Positions 22,412 through 33,747 of a DNA stretch of 64,000 bases are shown here, piece after piece. Source of the DNA: Oxalobacteraceae bacterium OTU3CAMAD1 (GTDB taxonomy: Bacteria > Pseudomonadota > Gammaproteobacteria > Burkholderiales > Burkholderiaceae_D). The position numbers were made by a program, and so were the translations under genes. Position 1 is the stretch's first letter; each line of letters starts with the position of its first letter. The stretch covers positions 2,232,001-2,296,000 of the forward strand of contig CP099650.1 of assembly GCA_024123915.1 (NCBI GenBank). The letters are read 5' to 3'. The notes beneath the pieces were generated by a model. That model had not been told where the DNA came from and made no database searches. It worked only from the letters and a program-made list of their open reading frames with translations.

Positions 22412-24183
<1,772 letters not shown>

Positions 24184-24857: not shown

Positions 24858-24888
24858 TTGACAACGTAAATGATAATAATTATCATTT
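24858..24888 (+). promoter_or_regulatory. Promoter with perfect Fur box
   Basis: TTGACA at 24858-24863, 17 bp, then TATCAT at 24881-24886, a near-consensus sigma-70 promoter. Across the spacer and -10 lies a perfect 21-bp palindrome at 24868-24888: AAATGATAAT, A, ATTATCATTT. This is close to the canonical Fur operator. Fur-Fe2+ binding would occlude the -10, so the five genes from 24971 to 29438 should be induced by iron limitation. Confidence 0.88.
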
Positions 24889-24970
24889 GTGTTTGTGCCT
24901 GCCTAAGGGCAACTATTTGGCAACTATTTCGGCGAACCAGGGACATGAATTAAGGACATGAGGACATGAA

Positions 24971-25609
24971 GTGAGCGCTCCACAAGCCAGCAATGCCAGC
25001 CGCGCGGTATGGCTGAAGAACCTGCACCAGTGGCACTGGATCAGCTCGGCTTTATGCCTGCTCGGCATGTTTTTGTTCAGCATTACCGGCATCACCCTGA
25101 ACCATGCCTCGCAGATCGAGGCCAAGCCGACCATCGTGCGCCAGCAGGCCACCGTGCCGGCGGCGCTGACGGCGCAGTTGCGCGCCTACGCCGCCGATCA
25201 CGACGGCGCCAAGGAGCCGCTGCCGGTGGCGGCCGAACAATGGTTGAGCGACACCTGGAAGGTGCAGGCCGGCGGCCGCGCCGCCGAATGGGCCGCCGAC
25301 GAGGTCTACCTGCCGATGCCCAAGGCCGGCGGCGACGCCTGGGTGCGCATCGCGCTGGAGGACGGCGCGGCCGAATTCGAGAAAACCGACCGTGGCTGGA
25401 TCTCCTGGCTCAACGACGTCCACAAGGGCCGCAACACGGGCGCCGCGTGGAACTGGTTCATCGACATCTTCGCCGGCGCCTGCCTGGTGTTTTGCATCAC
25501 CGGCTTGCTGATCCTGAAGTTCCACGCCGCCAACCGGCCGTTCACCTGGCCGATGGTCGGCCTGGGTATCTTGATTCCGTTTGTCATCGCTTTGCTGTTC
25601 ATACACTAA
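24971..25609 (+). CDS. PepSY-associated TM helix protein
   Basis: 212 aa inner-membrane protein. TM1 lies at about 22-44 (HQWHWISSALCLLGMFLFSITG), then a periplasmic domain of about 110 residues, then TM2 (WNWFIDIFAGACLVFCITGLLILK) and TM3 near the C-terminus (MVGLGILIPFVIALLF). HQWHW near TM1 and the H of DVHKGRN before TM2 could ligate heme. PepSY-TM proteins accompany siderophore uptake and ferric reductase systems. It starts with GTG 24971 preceded by GAGGA. It is the first gene behind the Fur box and probably passes electrons across the membrane to the flavoprotein encoded next. Confidence 0.9.
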   Translation: MSAPQASNASRAVWLKNLHQWHWISSALCLLGMFLFSITGITLNHASQIEAKPTIVRQQATVPAALTAQLRAYAADHDGAKEPLPVAAEQWLSDTWKVQAGGRAAEWAADEVYLPMPKAGGDAWVRIALEDGAAEFEKTDRGWISWLNDVHKGRNTGAAWNWFIDIFAGACLVFCITGLLILKFHAANRPFTWPMVGLGILIPFVIALLFIH

Positions 25610-25643
25610 TTTTCCAACCTCCTTCACCTCGCACGGGTACTCC

Positions 25644-26159
25644 ATGAAATTACGTTATTCCATCGCACTGAGCCTGCCGCTGGCCAGCGCCTCGGCCATG
25701 GGCGCCGATCTGGCCCTCAAACTCGACGTGCCGCAATTGAACGTTGCCGAATACCACCGCCCTTACATCGCCGCGTGGCTGGAGAACGCCGACCAGAAAG
25801 TGGTGACCAACCTGGCCGTTCTGTATGACACCAAGAAAAAGGACAACGCCGGCACCAAGTGGCTCAAGGACATGCGGCAGTGGTGGCGCAAGACCGGGCG
25901 CGACGTCGAGATGCCGATGGACGGCGTCAGCGGTGCGACCAAGGCGCCGGGCGAAGTGTCGCTGACCTTCCCGGGCGCCAAGGCTGCTTTGGACAAACTG
26001 CCGGCCGGTAATTACACCTTGCTGGTGGAAGCGGCGCGCGAGGCGGGCGGACGCGAAGTGGTCAAGGTGCCGCTGCAGTGGCCGCCGAAGACCAAGCAGG
26101 ACCTCAAAGGCCAGGGCAAGGAAGAGCTGGGCGCCGTGGTTGTACAACTGAAACCATAA
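25644..26159 (+). CDS. DUF2271 periplasmic protein with flavinylation motif
   Basis: 171 aa with a signal peptide (MKLRYSIALSLPLASASAMG, cleavage about residue 21). It matches DUF2271: PYIAAWLENAD and a WLKDMRQWWRKTG segment. It contains D93-G-V-S-G-A-T99, the Dxx(S/T)GAT motif on which ApbE attaches FMN covalently to Thr. ApbE is encoded two genes downstream. The protein is therefore predicted to be a covalent periplasmic flavoprotein taking electrons from the PepSY partner. ATG 25644 is chosen because the signal peptide begins there. Confidence 0.88.
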   Translation: MKLRYSIALSLPLASASAMGADLALKLDVPQLNVAEYHRPYIAAWLENADQKVVTNLAVLYDTKKKDNAGTKWLKDMRQWWRKTGRDVEMPMDGVSGATKAPGEVSLTFPGAKAALDKLPAGNYTLLVEAAREAGGREVVKVPLQWPPKTKQDLKGQGKEELGAVVVQLKP

Positions 26160-26172
26160 GAAAGCAGGGGAC

Positions 26173-26997
26173 ATGTCTACACTGAATAAATCACTGGTCG
26201 CGCTGGCGCTGGCCGGCATGGCGCTGAGCGCGCACGCCCACAAGCCGTGGCTGCTGCCGACGTCGACCCTGGTCGAAGGCAAGGAAGCCTGGGTCACGAT
26301 CGACGCCGCCATCTCGGAAGGCCTGTTCGACGTCGACCACCAGCCGCTCAAAGTCGACACCGTCGTCATCACCGGCCCGGACGGCGCCAAGCTGGAAAAG
26401 CAGAACGTCGCCAACGGCAAGATGCGCAACAGCTTCGACCTCAAGCTGCCCAAGCCGGGCACCTATAAGATCGAGCTGGTGTCGAAGAACGTGTTCGGCA
26501 GCTACAAGAACGCGGCCGGCGAAATGAAGCGCTTCCGTGGCACCGAGGAAACCCTGGCCAAGGACGTGCCGGCCGACGCGACCGAGGTCAAGCTCACCCG
26601 CACCGACAGCCGCCTGGAGACCTTCGTCTCGACCGGCGAGCCGGACATGGCAGTCTTCAAGACCACCGGCGTGGGCCTTGAGATGGTGCCCGTCACCCAT
26701 CCGAACGACCTGCGCGCCGGCGAGAAGGCGACCTGGCGTTTCCTGCTCGACGGTAAGCCTGCGGCCAACCAGGGCGTGAGCCTGATCCCGGGCGGCGTGC
26801 GCTATCGCGGCACCCTGGGCGAGATCCGCCAGAACACCGACGCCAAGGGCGAGCTCACGTTCACCGTGCCGGCGGCCGGCATGTACATGGTCAGCAGCAG
26901 CTGGCCGGCGGCCGCGCCGCAGGTGCAGGGCCAGCCGCCGCAGATGGCGCCGCGCCGCGCCACCTACGCGGCGACCGTGGAAATCCTGCCGGAGTAA
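26173..26997 (+). CDS. DUF4198 periplasmic protein
   Basis: 274 aa. Signal peptide SLVALALAGMALSAHA is followed at once by HKPWLLPTSTLVEG, so the mature N-terminus should begin with or near a His, as in many DUF4198/NikK-type metal-binding proteins. Beta-sandwich modules follow (ITGPDGAKLEKQNVANG, LKLPKPGTYKIEL, NTDAKGELTFTVPAAGMYMV). It is probably a periplasmic metal or ligand binder. It sits 13 bp after the DUF2271 gene in the Fur-controlled operon, which suggests a role in iron handling. Confidence 0.87.
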   Translation: MSTLNKSLVALALAGMALSAHAHKPWLLPTSTLVEGKEAWVTIDAAISEGLFDVDHQPLKVDTVVITGPDGAKLEKQNVANGKMRNSFDLKLPKPGTYKIELVSKNVFGSYKNAAGEMKRFRGTEETLAKDVPADATEVKLTRTDSRLETFVSTGEPDMAVFKTTGVGLEMVPVTHPNDLRAGEKATWRFLLDGKPAANQGVSLIPGGVRYRGTLGEIRQNTDAKGELTFTVPAAGMYMVSSSWPAAAPQVQGQPPQMAPRRATYAATVEILPE

Positions 26998-27033
26998 TCC
27001 GGCATTCCATCGCCACACGTCGACAAGGTTCGC

Positions 27034-28071
27034 ATGCGCCGGGTTCTCCTGCCTCATCATATTTCCGAAGACCCGGCGCCGGCGGGCGGCGCCATCCGCG
27101 ATTTTGCCGGCCGCAGCATGGGCACCAGCTGGTCGGTGCGGCTGGTGGCCGCGCCGGAAGGCTCGCCCGGCCACCTTGCGCTCGACCATCTCCAAGATGG
27201 GCTGCAACAGCAGCTCGATTCCATCGTGGCCGAAATGAGCCACTGGGAAACCGATTCCGACCTCGGGCGCTTCAACCGCGCCGGGGCCGGTAGCTGGCTG
27301 GCCTTGCCGCCAGCCTTTTTTGACGTGCTGTCGTTCGCGATGGACGTGGCGCGCGATTCCGGCGGCGCCTACGATCCGTGCGCCGGCACCCTGGTCAACC
27401 TGTGGGGCTTCGGGCCCTACGGGCGCTTCGACCAGCCTGGATTCATTCCCCCTTCACCGGACGAGATCGCCGTCGCGCGCACCCAGCTTGCCGCCGCCGG
27501 CGTGCGGCTGGAGCGCGAAGGGCGCAAGGCCCTGCAGCCGGGCGGCGTTCAGCTCGATTTGTCGGCCGTGGCCAAGGGCTACAGCGTCGACCGGCTGGCC
27601 TACTATTTGAAAACCCAGGGCATCGAACACTACCTGGTCGAGGTCGGCGGCGAGCTGCGTGGCGCCGGCGTCAAGCCGGACGGCCAGCCGTGGTGGGTGG
27701 CGCTGGAGGAGGCGACGGATGCCTCCGCCGTGGAGGAACCCGCTTCGCTGGTGCTGGCGCTACATGGCCTGGCGGTGGCCACCTCGGGCGACTACCGGCG
27801 CTACTTCGAGCTCGACGGCAGGCGCTATTCGCACACCATCGATCCGCGCAGCGGCATGCCGATCGCCAACGACCTGGCCTCGGTCACCGTGGTGCACGGC
27901 CAGTGCATGGCGGCCGACGCCTGGTCGACCGCGCTGACGGTGCTGGGCGCCGAACAGGGCCTGGCGCTGGCTGAACGCCAGGGGCTGGCGGCGCGCTTCG
28001 TCGCCCGCGACGCCGGCGGCGGCTACACCGAACACATGAGTTCCCATTTACGCGGCATGCTAAACGAATAA
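27034..28071 (+). CDS. apbE: FAD:protein FMN transferase (ApbE family)
   Basis: 345 aa. The family motifs are FAGRSMGTSWSVRL near the N-terminus, DPCAGTLVNLWGFGP, DLSAVAKGYSVDRLA, VEVGGELRGAG, HTIDPRSGMPI and AADAWSTALTVLG. It transfers FMN from FAD to Thr/Ser in Dxx(S/T)GAT motifs, and the DUF2271 protein in this operon has one. Oddly, no signal peptide or lipobox is visible (it starts MRRVLLPHHISEDPAP), whereas most ApbE proteins act in the periplasm. Either this enzyme works in the cytoplasm or the true start differs. Confidence 0.92.
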   Translation: MRRVLLPHHISEDPAPAGGAIRDFAGRSMGTSWSVRLVAAPEGSPGHLALDHLQDGLQQQLDSIVAEMSHWETDSDLGRFNRAGAGSWLALPPAFFDVLSFAMDVARDSGGAYDPCAGTLVNLWGFGPYGRFDQPGFIPPSPDEIAVARTQLAAAGVRLEREGRKALQPGGVQLDLSAVAKGYSVDRLAYYLKTQGIEHYLVEVGGELRGAGVKPDGQPWWVALEEATDASAVEEPASLVLALHGLAVATSGDYRRYFELDGRRYSHTIDPRSGMPIANDLASVTVVHGQCMAADAWSTALTVLGAEQGLALAERQGLAARFVARDAGGGYTEHMSSHLRGMLNE

Positions 28072-28076
28072 GCTGA

Positions 28077-29438
28077 ATGATCTGGACCGACGACCCTACC
28101 CGATTGCTGCTGGTGGCAGGCCTGGGCGCCAGCTATGGCCTGGTGTGCCTGATGCCGTACCTGCGCCATCGCCGCAAGCGCCAAGCGGCGCTGCGCGCCA
28201 GGGCCGAGGCGGCCGCTTCGCCCGGCTGGATCGTCGCCTATGCCAGCCAGACCGGCAACGCCGAGGCGCTGGCGCAGCAAACCCTGGCGACCTTGCGGCT
28301 GGCCGGCATCGCCGCCCAATTGAGCGAGCTGTCCGAACTGGACGCCGACGACCTGCGCCGCGCCGAGCGCATCCTGTTCCTGGTCAGCACCTACGGCGAA
28401 GGCGACGCGCCCGATGCCGCCGCCGCCTTCGCCGGCCGCCTGATGACCACCGAACTGCCGCTGGCGCACCTGCACTACGCGGTGCTGGCGCTGGGCGACA
28501 GCGCCTACGCCCAATTCTGCGGCTTCGGTCGGGCGCTGGACGCCTGGCTCGCCGCGCGCGGCGCGCACAGCCTGTTCCCGCGCATCGACGTCGACCGTAG
28601 CGCCGACGCCGCCATCGCGCAATGGCGGCAGCAATTGAGCCACCTGGCCGGCACCAGCGACGCGCCGGACTGGAGCGCGCCGGACTTCGAGGACTGGACA
28701 TTGCGCACCCGCGTGGCGCTCAACCCGGGCAGCGCCGGGGCGCCGGTCTACCACCTGGAGCTGACGCCGCCGGGCGGCGTGTTGCCGGACTGGCAGTCGG
28801 GCGACCTGGTGCAGATCGCCGCGCCGGCCGAGCCGTCGCGTCCGCGCGAATACTCGATCGCCTCGATTCCGGCCGACGGCAGGGTGCACTTGCTGGTGCG
28901 CCTGCACAGCCACGACGACGGCAGCCACGGCGTGGCCTCGGGCTGGCTGACCCGCCAGGCCGAGCCGGGCCGGACGGTGCGGCTGCGGCTGCGCCAGCAC
29001 CGCCGCTTCCGGCTGGAGGACAACGCGGGGCGGCCGTTGATCCTGATCGGCAACGGCAGCGGCATCGCCGGCCTGCGCGGCCACCTCAAGGCGCGCGCGC
29101 TGGCAGGGCAGGGGCGCAACTGGCTGTTGTTCGGCGAACGCAACAGCGCCCACGACTTCCATTACCGGGACGAGCTGGAGGCGATGCACCTGGCGGGACG
29201 GCTCGACCTGGACCTGGCCTGGTCGCGCGACGGCGGGGAGGCGCGCTATGTGCAGGACCTGCTGCCGGCCCGGGCCGACAAGTTGCGGGCCTGGGTGGCC
29301 GACGGCGCCGCGATCTATGTCTGCGGCAGCCTGCAGGGCATGGCGGCCGGCGTTCATCAGGCGCTCGAGGCGATACTGGGGAGTGTGCAATTGGCTGGGT
29401 TGGTCGACGAAAAGCGTTACCAACGGGATGTGTACTAA
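28077..29438 (+). CDS. Membrane-anchored flavodoxin-FNR reductase (sulfite reductase flavoprotein-like)
   Basis: 453 aa. An N-terminal TM anchor spans about 10-28 (LLLVAGLGASYGLVCLMPYL) and is followed by a basic stretch. Next is a flavodoxin domain binding FMN (YASQTGNAEALAQQT, STYGEGDAPD, LALGDSAYAQFCGFG). Then comes an FAD/NADP-reductase module (PREYSIAS, IGNGSGIAGLRGHL, LLFGERNSAHDF, IYVCGSLQGMA) ending EKRYQRDVY like CysJ. It should move electrons from NADPH via FAD and FMN on the cytoplasmic face to the PepSY membrane protein. It is the last gene of the Fur operon, 5 bp after apbE. Confidence 0.92.
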   Translation: MIWTDDPTRLLLVAGLGASYGLVCLMPYLRHRRKRQAALRARAEAAASPGWIVAYASQTGNAEALAQQTLATLRLAGIAAQLSELSELDADDLRRAERILFLVSTYGEGDAPDAAAAFAGRLMTTELPLAHLHYAVLALGDSAYAQFCGFGRALDAWLAARGAHSLFPRIDVDRSADAAIAQWRQQLSHLAGTSDAPDWSAPDFEDWTLRTRVALNPGSAGAPVYHLELTPPGGVLPDWQSGDLVQIAAPAEPSRPREYSIASIPADGRVHLLVRLHSHDDGSHGVASGWLTRQAEPGRTVRLRLRQHRRFRLEDNAGRPLILIGNGSGIAGLRGHLKARALAGQGRNWLLFGERNSAHDFHYRDELEAMHLAGRLDLDLAWSRDGGEARYVQDLLPARADKLRAWVADGAAIYVCGSLQGMAAGVHQALEAILGSVQLAGLVDEKRYQRDVY

Positions 29439-29486: not shown

Positions 29487-30383
29487 TTAGGAGACATACA
29501 CCCATGGTACGCCCACGTAGTTGGCGGCGCCGTCGTTGAAGTTCACCTGCGCGTGCGAGTTGGCGCCGCGGGCATAGACGTAGTTGGAGGAGGAAACCCT
29601 CAAGTACGCCGTGCCGGGGGCCAGCAGGTCCGAATAGTACATGGTGCGCCAGCCGTCGAAGCGATAGTTGGCGTTGATATTCCGGCCACGCAGGTTCATC
29701 AGGTTGAGGCTGCCCGTGGGCTTGTAGCCGGATTGGTAGCCGGCGGCCGACAAATCGATCCTTGCGTGCGCTTCCTTATCGGTAAAGAAATCGTCGAAGG
29801 CCCGGACGATGTAAAAGCCGTGATAGGGCACGGAGATGGTGTGGTAGTAATAGCGGCTTTCGGTCGGTGTATAAGTGAACCACCAGTCCATGATCAGCGT
29901 CCTGGATGCGGCGCCGGTGCCGGAATTGCCGGTGCCGGCGCCCTGGGCCCAGACCCACATGTCGATGTTGCCGGGATAGTAGCCTTCCCAGACCACCGTG
30001 CCGTCCGACCAGTGCAGTACGCCATAGTACGGGGTGAGCCAGCCCACCGCGCTGGGCGCGACCAACTGGCCGCCGGCCAGGCCCGGGTGCACGGCGGTTT
30101 CTTCTTCGGCAGGGATGGCCGTGGCGATGAGTCTGTTCTTGATGTCCTCCACCTCGCCATTGGTGTCGTCGCTGGCGTCGTCGTCCGCCTTGCCCTGCTT
30201 GTCCATGAACGCGACGAATTCCGCCGGCAAGCCGTCACGCATGGCTTTGACGCGGTCCGCGCCCCTTTGTTCGATGTCCTGCAGGTGCAGCGCTTCGGAT
30301 TGCTGTAGTCGCAGCACCTCGTCGCGTCGCGCGCTGACTAGTTGTTGCAATTCTTCGTCGCCGGGTTTGAATGCGGTAGCCAT
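29487..30383 (-). CDS. Hypothetical protein, helical N-terminus and aromatic beta-rich C-terminus
   Basis: 298 aa, not recognised. Residues 1-100 are charged and helical (DEELQQLVSARRDEVLRLQQ). Residues about 105-298 are rich in Tyr, Trp, Gly and Asn (VLHWSDGTVVWEGYYPGNID, ESRYYYHTISVPYHGFYIV, YLRVSSSNYVYARG), suggesting a beta-sandwich or lectin-like fold. There is no signal peptide or TM segment. AAGGAG before ATG 30383 indicates real translation. It is a lone gene facing the Fur operon, possibly an effector- or toxin-like binding protein, but this is a guess. Confidence 0.7.
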   Translation of the reverse strand: MATAFKPGDEELQQLVSARRDEVLRLQQSEALHLQDIEQRGADRVKAMRDGLPAEFVAFMDKQGKADDDASDDTNGEVEDIKNRLIATAIPAEEETAVHPGLAGGQLVAPSAVGWLTPYYGVLHWSDGTVVWEGYYPGNIDMWVWAQGAGTGNSGTGAASRTLIMDWWFTYTPTESRYYYHTISVPYHGFYIVRAFDDFFTDKEAHARIDLSAAGYQSGYKPTGSLNLMNLRGRNINANYRFDGWRTMYYSDLLAPGTAYLRVSSSNYVYARGANSHAQVNFNDGAANYVGVPWVYVS

Positions 30384-30978: not shown

Positions 30979-33747
30979 ATGATTTTGCAAGAGAAAGTCG
31001 GCGCCCGATCCGTGCGCCTGGCACTCGCAGTCCTGGCCGGTACCACCATGTTCGCAGGTCAGGCGTCGGCACAAGAGCAAGCCATCCAGAAAGTGGAAAT
31101 CACCGGCTCGGCCATCAAGCGTATCAATGTTGAGGGCGCCCTGCCGGTGCAGCGCCTGAGCTCGGAGCAGATCGCCAAGACCGGCGCTACTTCGGTCGCC
31201 GAACTGATCCAGGCCCTGCCTTCGATGCAAGGTTTCACCGTCGCCGCCATCGCGGCCGGCACCAACTCCGGTGGCCGCGTGTCCGCGTCCATCCACGACA
31301 TCGGCGAAAGCTATACCCTGGTGCTGCTGAACGGCCGCCGCATCGCCCCGCAAGGCTCGGGTTCCGCGATCAACCTGAACGCCATTCCGATGAGCGCGGT
31401 TGAACGTGTCGAGATCCTCACCGACGGCGCTTCGGCCCTGTACGGTTCGGACGCCATCGCCGGCGTGATCAACTTCATCCTGAAGAAAAACCTGCAAGGC
31501 GGCAGCATCGAAGCGACCGCCAGCCAGCCTGGCCAAAGCCGCGCCGGCCAGTCGAGCAACTTCAGCGCCACCTACGGTTTCGGCGATCTGGACACGAACC
31601 GCTACAACGTCTTGCTGTCGGCCCGCCACGACGAGAACAGCCGCGTCAAAGCCACCGACCGCGATTTCGCCAACAGCTCGTTCCTGCCATTCAGCTGGAA
31701 CGGCCAGAACTACATCCACGACCGTTCGAGCACCTCGGCCGTTCCGGCCAACGTGGGCGTGGCCTACCGCGACGGCCGCACGCCGACGTCGACCTCGTCG
31801 ATCGGCTTCAACCCGTACCGCAACATCAACGGCCAATGCGGCCCGATGAACCAGCCTTCGAAGAACAACACGGCCACCGTGCAGAACTGCGGCTTCGATT
31901 CCGCCGCCACCGTCGAGATCGTCCCCGCAAGCAAGCGCGACACCGTGTTCCTCAAAGGCACCGCCAAAGTCGGCGAGACCTTCGAAGTCTTTGCCGAGGC
32001 CGCGTACTCGCGCATGGACTTGACCGCCCGCATCGCGCCGAACACCGCCTCGATCGCGCTGGCCAAAGGCTCGCAGCTGTACAACAACTACGTGCGTCCG
32101 TACCTGACCACCGCGCAAGACGCCAACCTGTCGAGCGCCACGGCCACCTACCGCACCTACGACTGGGGCACCCGTGACAGCCAGACCATCACCGAAGCGA
32201 AGCACCTGGTGCTGGGCACCGAGGGCGAGATCGGCGCCTGGAGCGTCGGCGCCGGCCTGACCTGGTCCGAGAACTCGATCGACGAGCGCTATGAAGGCGG
32301 CTACGTCAAGAACGCCGAGTTCCGCAGCATGCTGGCCAACAACCAGTTCAACCCGTTCCTGGCCGCCGGCGAGCAAAGCGCCGCCACCAAGCAACTGATC
32401 GCCAACTCGGTGTTCAAGGGTTCGATCCGCGAAGCGTCGACCACGCTCAAGGGCATCGACTTCCGCGGTTCGCGCGAACTGTTCCAGCTGCCGGCCGGCG
32501 CGGCCAGCATCGGTCTGGGCGGCGACTTCCGCAACTACCACTACAAGCAAACCCCGAACGCGACCTCGTCGGACATCTACGGCTTCAGCGCTTCGCCGGC
32601 CTACGACATGGAACGTGACAACTACGGCGCCTTCGCCGAGATGATCATCCCGGTCATCAAGACCGTCGAAGTGACCGCCGGCGCGCGTTACGACACGATC
32701 GCAGCGGTCAAGAACCACATCGCCAACCGCGAAATGGGCAACAAGGAATCGGCCAGCACCTACAAGGTGTCTGCCCGTTGGCAGCCGACCCAGTCGTTCC
32801 TGATGCGCGGTTCTTACGGCACCGGCTTCAAGGCGCCGTCGATGCTCGACATCGGCCAGCCATTGGTGGCGGCAGGCTTCACCGCCTCGCCATGGGAATG
32901 CCCGCCCAACCTGGCGGCGGAAAACTCGTCCTACTGCCGCGTTGGCAAGAGCCAATACAACGTCATCTCCGGCGGCAACGAGAACCTCAAGCCTGAGAAG
33001 TCGAAGCAGTTCACCGTAGGCTTCCGTTTCGAGCCGACCAGCTCGTTCTACGTCCAGGCCGACCTGTGGGACGTGAAGATCCGTGACGCCGTCTCGGCGG
33101 TGTCGGAAGCTCAAATCTTCGCCGATCCGGTCCAGTTCCGCGACCTGTTCACCACCTTCGTGGAACCAGGCAGCGGCCAGACCCTGTGGGCCAAGAAAAC
33201 GCTGTCGGTCAACATCGGCCAGACCCACAACCAGGGTATCGACTGGGAAACGACCTACCGTCACCGCTTCGGTTTCGGCAACCTGAGCACCACGCTGAAC
33301 GGCACCTACCTGCTCAAGTCGGACTACACCCGTCCGGGCACGAGCAACGACTGGGTCAACAGCATGAACTTCTTCGGTATCAATGACCAGGTATCGTTCC
33401 GCCACGTGATCCGTCTGGCCACCACGCTTGACACCGGCGCGTTCTCGAACTCGCTGATCGCCAACTACCGCAACGGTTACACCGACGCGTCGGCGACGTC
33501 GTTCAACCTGGGGCTGAACAAGAACGAAACGTTCCGCATCGAAGTGCCGTCGTACATGACCTTCGACTGGCAGGGCAAATGGCAAGCGACCAAGCAGTTC
33601 GGTCTGCGCGCTGGCATCAAGAACATCGCCGACCGCAATCCACCGCTGTCGCTGCGCGCTTCGTCCGGCCACCAGATCGGCTACGACGCACGCTACGCCG
33701 ATCCGATGGGCCGTACGTTCTACCTGACCGGCAACTACACCTTCTAA
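30979..33747 (+). CDS. TonB-dependent outer membrane receptor
   Basis: 922 aa. The signal peptide ends near ASAQE. A plug domain follows (VEITGSAIKRINVEGALPVQ, VLLNGRRIAPQG, VERVEILTDGASALYGSDAI, AGVINFILKKN), then a 22-strand barrel ending in the outer-membrane signature GNYTF with terminal Phe. It resembles the large Oxalobacteraceae/Xanthomonas receptor group, whose ligands include sugars, peptides and siderophores; specificity cannot be told. GGGAG lies before the ATG. It is adjacent to Fur-controlled genes, but its own upstream region has no visible Fur box. An intrinsic terminator follows. Confidence 0.94.
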   Translation: MILQEKVGARSVRLALAVLAGTTMFAGQASAQEQAIQKVEITGSAIKRINVEGALPVQRLSSEQIAKTGATSVAELIQALPSMQGFTVAAIAAGTNSGGRVSASIHDIGESYTLVLLNGRRIAPQGSGSAINLNAIPMSAVERVEILTDGASALYGSDAIAGVINFILKKNLQGGSIEATASQPGQSRAGQSSNFSATYGFGDLDTNRYNVLLSARHDENSRVKATDRDFANSSFLPFSWNGQNYIHDRSSTSAVPANVGVAYRDGRTPTSTSSIGFNPYRNINGQCGPMNQPSKNNTATVQNCGFDSAATVEIVPASKRDTVFLKGTAKVGETFEVFAEAAYSRMDLTARIAPNTASIALAKGSQLYNNYVRPYLTTAQDANLSSATATYRTYDWGTRDSQTITEAKHLVLGTEGEIGAWSVGAGLTWSENSIDERYEGGYVKNAEFRSMLANNQFNPFLAAGEQSAATKQLIANSVFKGSIREASTTLKGIDFRGSRELFQLPAGAASIGLGGDFRNYHYKQTPNATSSDIYGFSASPAYDMERDNYGAFAEMIIPVIKTVEVTAGARYDTIAAVKNHIANREMGNKESASTYKVSARWQPTQSFLMRGSYGTGFKAPSMLDIGQPLVAAGFTASPWECPPNLAAENSSYCRVGKSQYNVISGGNENLKPEKSKQFTVGFRFEPTSSFYVQADLWDVKIRDAVSAVSEAQIFADPVQFRDLFTTFVEPGSGQTLWAKKTLSVNIGQTHNQGIDWETTYRHRFGFGNLSTTLNGTYLLKSDYTRPGTSNDWVNSMNFFGINDQVSFRHVIRLATTLDTGAFSNSLIANYRNGYTDASATSFNLGLNKNETFRIEVPSYMTFDWQGKWQATKQFGLRAGIKNIADRNPPLSLRASSGHQIGYDARYADPMGRTFYLTGNYTF

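Follow-up and report, generated by a model that had tools for sequence, protein, structure and literature searches.

The 64,000-nucleotide stretch of the Oxalobacteraceae bacterium OTU3CAMAD1 genome analysed here (contig CP099650.1, positions 2,232,001 to 2,296,000; hereafter the window) carries at 24858-29438 a five-gene operon that is probably an iron-starvation system for the reduction of a metal, most likely ferric iron, in the periplasm. A Fur box lies over its promoter, and its genes encode PepSY-TM, DUF2271, DUF4198, ApbE and flavodoxin/FNR proteins. The system is already known from Caulobacter, and the present operon adds a member from another class of Proteobacteria. Its features, by position in the window, are as follows.

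24858..24863, + strand: promoter -35 element TTGACA (TTGACA-17-TATCAT, 11/12 consensus matches)
24868..24888, no strand: Fur box, a 21-base perfect palindrome (19-base core 24869-24887)
24881..24886, + strand: promoter -10 element TATCAT, within the Fur box
24971..25609, + strand: PepSY_TM_like_2 membrane protein, 212 residues, GTG start (Pfam E-value 1.9e-80)
25644..26159, + strand: DUF2271 protein, 171 residues, Sec-like signal (Pfam E-value 5.5e-49)
25938-25940, + strand: codon of Thr99, the predicted flavinylation site in DGVSGAT of DUF2271
26173..26997, + strand: DUF4198 protein, 274 residues, Sec-like signal (Pfam E-value 5.3e-50)
26239-26241, + strand: codon of His23, the predicted mature N-terminus of DUF4198; His56 lies within the same gene
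27034..28071, + strand: ApbE FAD:protein FMN transferase, 345 residues, no recognisable signal peptide (Pfam E-value 9.4e-83)
28077..29438, + strand: flavodoxin/FNR diflavin reductase, 453 residues, one N-terminal transmembrane-like stretch

An earlier note on this DNA, made from the letters alone, had claimed these five genes at these positions behind a perfect Fur palindrome over a good promoter, and both claims are confirmed. The genes are co-directional, with intergenic gaps of 34, 13, 36 and 5 bases in gene order, and all five Pfam assignments exceed the curated cut-offs. The reductase holds Flavodoxin_1 (E-value 2.1e-27) and NAD_binding_1 (E-value 5.8e-08) domains and is CysJ-like by NCBIfam, with a score under the cut-off of the CysJ model. 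The palindrome covers the promoter's -10 element. Its 19-base core occurs a single time in the window at up to three mismatches and never in 100 shuffles, and the operon's site is the sole perfect copy in the whole 7.48 Mb one-contig genome (G000). At two mismatches the core is found at eight further places in this genome, with none for a reversed-pattern control. Four of these sites precede TonB-dependent receptors, at 29-92 bases, and one precedes a Fur-family gene, at 29 bases. FeoA lies divergent to another site, 163 bases off. Of the remaining two, one is 31 bases ahead of an open reading frame (ORF) with sigma-factor and FecR domains, and the other is flanked by a sigma-factor gene and a rhamnogalacturonan-lyase gene. 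Because of the genes beside all eight sites, the box pattern is taken to mark the iron regulon of this genome, which has four FUR-family matches.

The earlier note had called for a survey of the co-occurrence of the five families, and this was carried out in 195 genomes from the operon's bacterial family, evenly drawn from a larger group. DUF2271 is present in 86 of them. The family list yielded 91 DUF2271 regions (one weak match, E-value 2.7e-5, was omitted), and 79 of these loci hold all five genes in the operon's order; of the other 12, L125 ends at a contig edge and 11 are of a divergent type or not resolved by the profiles. In three of the 79 (L055, L056, L058) an extra DUF2271-DUF4198 pair, duplicated as a unit, precedes the operon. 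A strong PF16357 match (E-value <1e-70) is seen in 81 genomes, a number equal to the 80 PepSY-bearing family loci and the operon's own genome together. The region upstream of PepSY was searched for the box in these 80 loci, in three loci from the class and in the operon itself. With at most three mismatches the box is found in 55 of the 84 regions and with at most four in 74, against 1 and 11 hits in 4,200 Markov shuffles, and 0 and 1 in the 84 regions with the reversed pattern. As the 84 regions are related, they are not independent; the 80 family loci alone give 54 and 72. Named loci, taken as the best 80 of at least 575 candidates and overlapping the family sample, include Duganella, Massilia, Janthinobacterium, Achromobacter and Variovorax. 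The full order is kept in 75 of them (the rest being three without ApbE, one without detected DUF4198 and one at a contig edge), and the box is found with at most three mismatches in 50, a figure without shuffle control. Since both the gene set and the box recur in the family, chance is not the explanation. Fur control fits this evidence, with both box and gene order conserved. Matches are few in a class-wide sample (13/185 at an E-value of 0.001, five of them over the cut-off). Separately, a metagenome-assembled genome labelled Verrucomicrobiaceae (L199) has the operon, with a PepSY protein 63% identical to that of the operon, which indicates contamination or transfer.

The closest known counterpart is CC3059-3063 (CCNA_03155-03159) of Caulobacter crescentus. 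Its expression is iron-dependent and repressed by Fur, with Fur binding demonstrated (PMC3751524), transposon insertions in it lower fitness in EDTA (PMC12004947), and periplasmic ferric reduction has been proposed for it (PMC3751524, PMC12004947). The two operons have in common the five gene types, an identical order and a Fur site over the promoter; the Caulobacter order follows the paper's table, and the families were confirmed by control-genome matches in Caulobacter vibrioides. The earlier note had called this five-gene version poorly characterised, which holds only in part: order, Fur control and EDTA fitness are on record, and ferric reductase activity is not shown in the parts of these papers that were read. 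On a wider scale, Meheust et al. (2021) list 3220 PepSY-like clusters, 2833 with DUF2271 and 1500 with DUF4198, and report experiments in which a DUF2271 protein of A. ursilacus is flavinylated by its cognate ApbE (PMC8238504). The present operon falls within the PepSY-like systems so defined, with a PepSY-like domain (PF03929/PF16357) clustered with ApbE/DUF2271 and the [S/T]GA[S/T] motif present; what it shares with them is PF16357, the DUF2271 motif, ApbE and DUF4198. In Alteromonas, iron limitation brings a rise in DUF4198/DUF2271 pairs (PMC7190382).

How would electrons travel through such a set of proteins? Under low iron, Fur would release the promoter, and electrons from NAD(P)H would enter the membrane-anchored flavodoxin/FNR protein. 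Haem held by histidines of the PepSY_TM protein would then carry them across the inner membrane to flavin mononucleotide (FMN) bound covalently to Thr99 of DUF2271, a cofactor that ApbE would have loaded. The flavinylated DUF2271 protein would in turn reduce Fe(III) or a ferric chelate, with subsequent uptake of Fe(II), while DUF4198, next to DUF2271, most likely holds the metal or its chelate. DGVSGAT in DUF2271 (SGAT at residue 96) holds the sole [ST]GA[ST] motif among the five proteins, and the acceptor threonine is conserved in all 88 aligned DUF2271 sequences. Of 243 DUF2271 proteins in a broader set, 200 match D[GASK]..G.[TS], whereas 43 deviate from it; eight of these 43 were inspected, seven having TSAT/SSAT/SAAT and one an SGAT without the preceding Asp. 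In the PepSY protein, transmembrane-like stretches lie near residues 23, 158 and 190, and histidines 22, 151 and 185 are invariant in 84/84 aligned proteins, with His45 kept in 79/84. By topology these conserved histidines would sit near both membrane faces, as in the two-haem FoxB (PMC11334425). FoxB and HiuB are haem-carrying inner-membrane PepSY proteins tied to periplasmic ferrisiderophore reduction (PMC13038864, PMC13001220), but their genes adjoin their own TonB receptor, whereas the present PepSY protein is short (212 residues, three transmembrane-like stretches). Sequence searches of the PDB with PepSY and DUF2271 gave nothing useful.

That the reductase feeds the PepSY protein and ApbE serves DUF2271 is best supported, on the sequence side, by natural fusions. 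The FNR of the DUF2271-FNR-ApbE locus type is a long protein, and all 11 long ORFs tested (L137 and ten of 23 other candidates) are PepSY_TM-Flavodoxin-NAD_binding fusions; six ApbE-DUF2271 fusion ORFs were seen, and all six were confirmed. The route from NADPH through reductase and PepSY to the FMN of DUF2271, as the earlier note had drawn it, fits the conserved order, the box and these fusions; haem binding, the direction of the electrons, the ferric substrate and the part given to DUF4198 are conjectural. Could DUF2271 and PepSY instead be a general periplasmic electron supply (for protein repair or oxidative stress, for example), merely raised under low iron? Flavinylated systems have been linked to several kinds of acceptor (PMC8238504), and DUF4198 is undetected in the fused PepSY-FNR locus type. 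The lower EDTA fitness of the Caulobacter insertion mutants (PMC12004947) and the conserved N-terminal histidine of DUF4198 nevertheless make this quite improbable.

A likely metal site of DUF4198 had been missed by the earlier note. The computed fold of the operon's DUF4198 protein resembles those of the solved metal-binding proteins IsDUF4198 (9GCB) and Zcp (9MHI-9MHO), with 17-20 percent identity; the PDB chains that DUF4198 matches under the name phosphoribosylglycinamide formyltransferase are Zcp by entry title. No paper about Zcp was found among the matches listed. The predicted cleavage AxA|H puts His23 first in the mature protein, and a cut after Ala20 would put His21 first. His23 is kept in 83/87 and 79/80 DUF4198 proteins (two alignments, the operon protein being in both) and His56, a candidate second ligand, in 74/87 and 70/80. 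The second ligands described for the solved proteins are His18 in IsDUF4198 and a histidine among those of the Zcp triple mutant H29A, H31A, H142A. From sequence and predicted structure, DUF4198 likely has a metal site at its conserved, predicted N-terminal histidine. In the main text of the DUF4198 metalloprotein paper the words iron, flavin and PepSY are absent; the two lines of research are therefore not joined there. Elsewhere in the same genome (L149:3984-6916) a second DUF4198 gene stands directly after a TonB receptor and has a sequence match to IsDUF4198.

Is iron, then, the metal concerned? Several observations weigh against ferric reduction. The characterised relatives of DUF4198 bind nickel or zinc/copper/cobalt, not iron, and a link to copper exists for the PepSY_TM protein CrpH. 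Iron reduction is not reported for the Caulobacter operon in the available parts of its papers, nor has it been measured for the present one. The TonB receptor downstream of the operon has no Fur box at up to three mismatches, and the box has five or more mismatches in 10 of the 84 upstream regions and 22 of the 80 named loci. Finally, a survey of 397 genomes spread over the phylum found DUF2271 (at an E-value of 1e-15) in 75, and the full five-gene order is a minority there, at 21 of the 74 loci examined (places of five genomes already in other sets were left out); one further locus has the FNR gene inverted and the others are subsets, 14 of them of the DUF2271-FNR-ApbE type.

The first of these points suggest an operon serving nickel, cobalt, zinc or copper, in which DUF4198 would be the carrier and the electrons would reduce copper or free a non-iron metal from its chelate. 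IsDUF4198 indeed binds nickel with a dissociation constant of 18 nM, the Zcp structure titles name zinc/copper/cobalt, and for a Caulobacter zur mutant CC3060-3061 are listed as reduced. Against this stand the Fur-type box, whose other genome copies lie at TonB receptors, a Fur-family gene and FeoA, and the strong control of the Caulobacter operon by iron and Fur (PMC3751524); moreover, neither the operon's DUF4198 protein nor its profiles gave a sequence match to the nickel-binding 9GCB up to an E-value of 10. A non-iron role is accordingly held to be unlikely, and the reduction of ferric iron under iron starvation is the preferred reading.

A second point missed by the earlier note is the export signal that ApbE lacks, and this mismatch of compartments merits experiment. 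In the operon's ApbE the MGT motif is preceded by 28 residues, in which a home-made signal rule finds no hydrophobic stretch. A mis-placed start hiding a signal was considered and rejected: the reading frame extends just 12 codons beyond the start, as far as the DUF4198 stop, and these codons are likewise free of any hydrophobic stretch. In the two further ApbE genes of the genome no signal is recognised by eye; another ApbE gene of this genome without recognisable signal adjoins a DsbD gene (L318:4775-7500). Signal calls were made with home-made lenient and strict rules on family and named sets, which overlap and are not independent. The lenient rule is positive for 43/218 ApbE, 220/226 DUF2271 and 220/220 DUF4198 proteins, many of the ApbE positives having N-termini like RRVLVPLAIAPAL, by eye no signals. 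A strict, proline-free rule is positive for 2/212 stand-alone ApbE, 6/6 ApbE-DUF2271 fusions and 206/220 DUF4198 proteins; it calls merely 71/226 DUF2271 proteins and misses two N-termini that by eye resemble twin-arginine translocation (Tat) signals (L363, L364). The two stand-alone positives are a lipoprotein (L259) and a protein with an unlikely upstream start (L063). Twin-arginine export of DUF2271 was also considered and rejected, an N-terminal RR being seen in one protein (the anchor that the test requires was located in 117 of the 167 proteins submitted).

The ApbE content of 30 genomes, 18 without and 12 with an in-cluster apbE, extends this picture. The phylum sample has 22 distinct genomes with an ApbE-less DUF2271 locus, and the first group takes in 18 of them (G493, G721, G527 and G585 were omitted beforehand). 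Each of the 18 encodes, away from that locus, an ApbE of lipoprotein type, recognised by rule in 17 and by eye in G646 (VQGC); some have additional ApbE proteins, both signal-bearing and signal-less. The second group was hand-picked for an in-cluster ApbE (six genomes of the operon's genus, six of the phylum sample), and in all 12 this protein is without a hydrophobic core. Six of these genomes have no other ApbE, four (G273, G224, G251, G304) have a second signal-less one, and in G638 and G699 a second one has a Tat-like N-terminus that the rule misses; ten of the 12, like the operon's genome, thus have no other exported-looking ApbE. Four further genomes without an in-cluster ApbE (G162, G755, G756, G757) each have a lipoprotein-type ApbE by eye, and in an Acidovorax genome (L190) the sole ApbE has an ambiguous N-terminus.

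Because the in-cluster ApbE is signal-less and DUF2271 signal-bearing, FMN may be attached before export. In such a scheme, offered tentatively and at somewhat less than an even chance, a cytosolic ApbE would use cytosolic flavin adenine dinucleotide (FAD) to install FMN on the DUF2271 preprotein, which would then be exported, probably via Sec, and a periplasmic lipoprotein ApbE would modify the same substrate family in other lineages. Some evidence speaks against it. The two genome groups lie in different taxonomic families (8 and 6), which ties the signal split to ancestry; the in-cluster ApbE of L259, outside the 12, has a lipobox; and the ApbE of A. ursilacus is described with a signal peptide (PMC8238504), which was truncated for expression, whereas the present ApbE has no recognisable signal at all. 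According to the available text of a review on ApbE, cytosolic ApbE occurs solely with cytosolic or fused substrates (PMC12052999). A literature search that covered few subscription papers, and took in parts of PMC12052999, PMC11334425 and PMC8238504, found no account of an ApbE that lacks a signal while its substrate is exported.

The operon's neighbours, again by position in the window, are the following.

22412-24141, - strand: HSP70 (DnaK-like) gene, split over two frames as if frameshifted; ORF 23395-24141 (-) covers profile positions 2-183 and ORF 22412-23842 (-) positions 248-598
29487-30383, - strand: 298-residue ORF between operon and TonB receptor, no Pfam/NCBIfam match at an E-value of 0.01
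30979-33747, + strand: TonB-dependent receptor, 922 residues (Pfam)

The receptor was considered as a further member of the operon and rejected, since it lacks a box within three mismatches and an opposite-strand ORF intervenes. TonB receptors flank 35 of the 80 named loci, so a loose link is possible.

A Fur-controlled periplasmic reduction system thus emerges as a clear and highly conserved set in this bacterial family, and DUF4198, a solved metal-binding fold, is now tied to a flavin carrier. The export signal missing from ApbE also makes two questions testable. Can a covalently flavinylated protein pass the export machinery? Do some bacteria escape the need to export FAD in this way?

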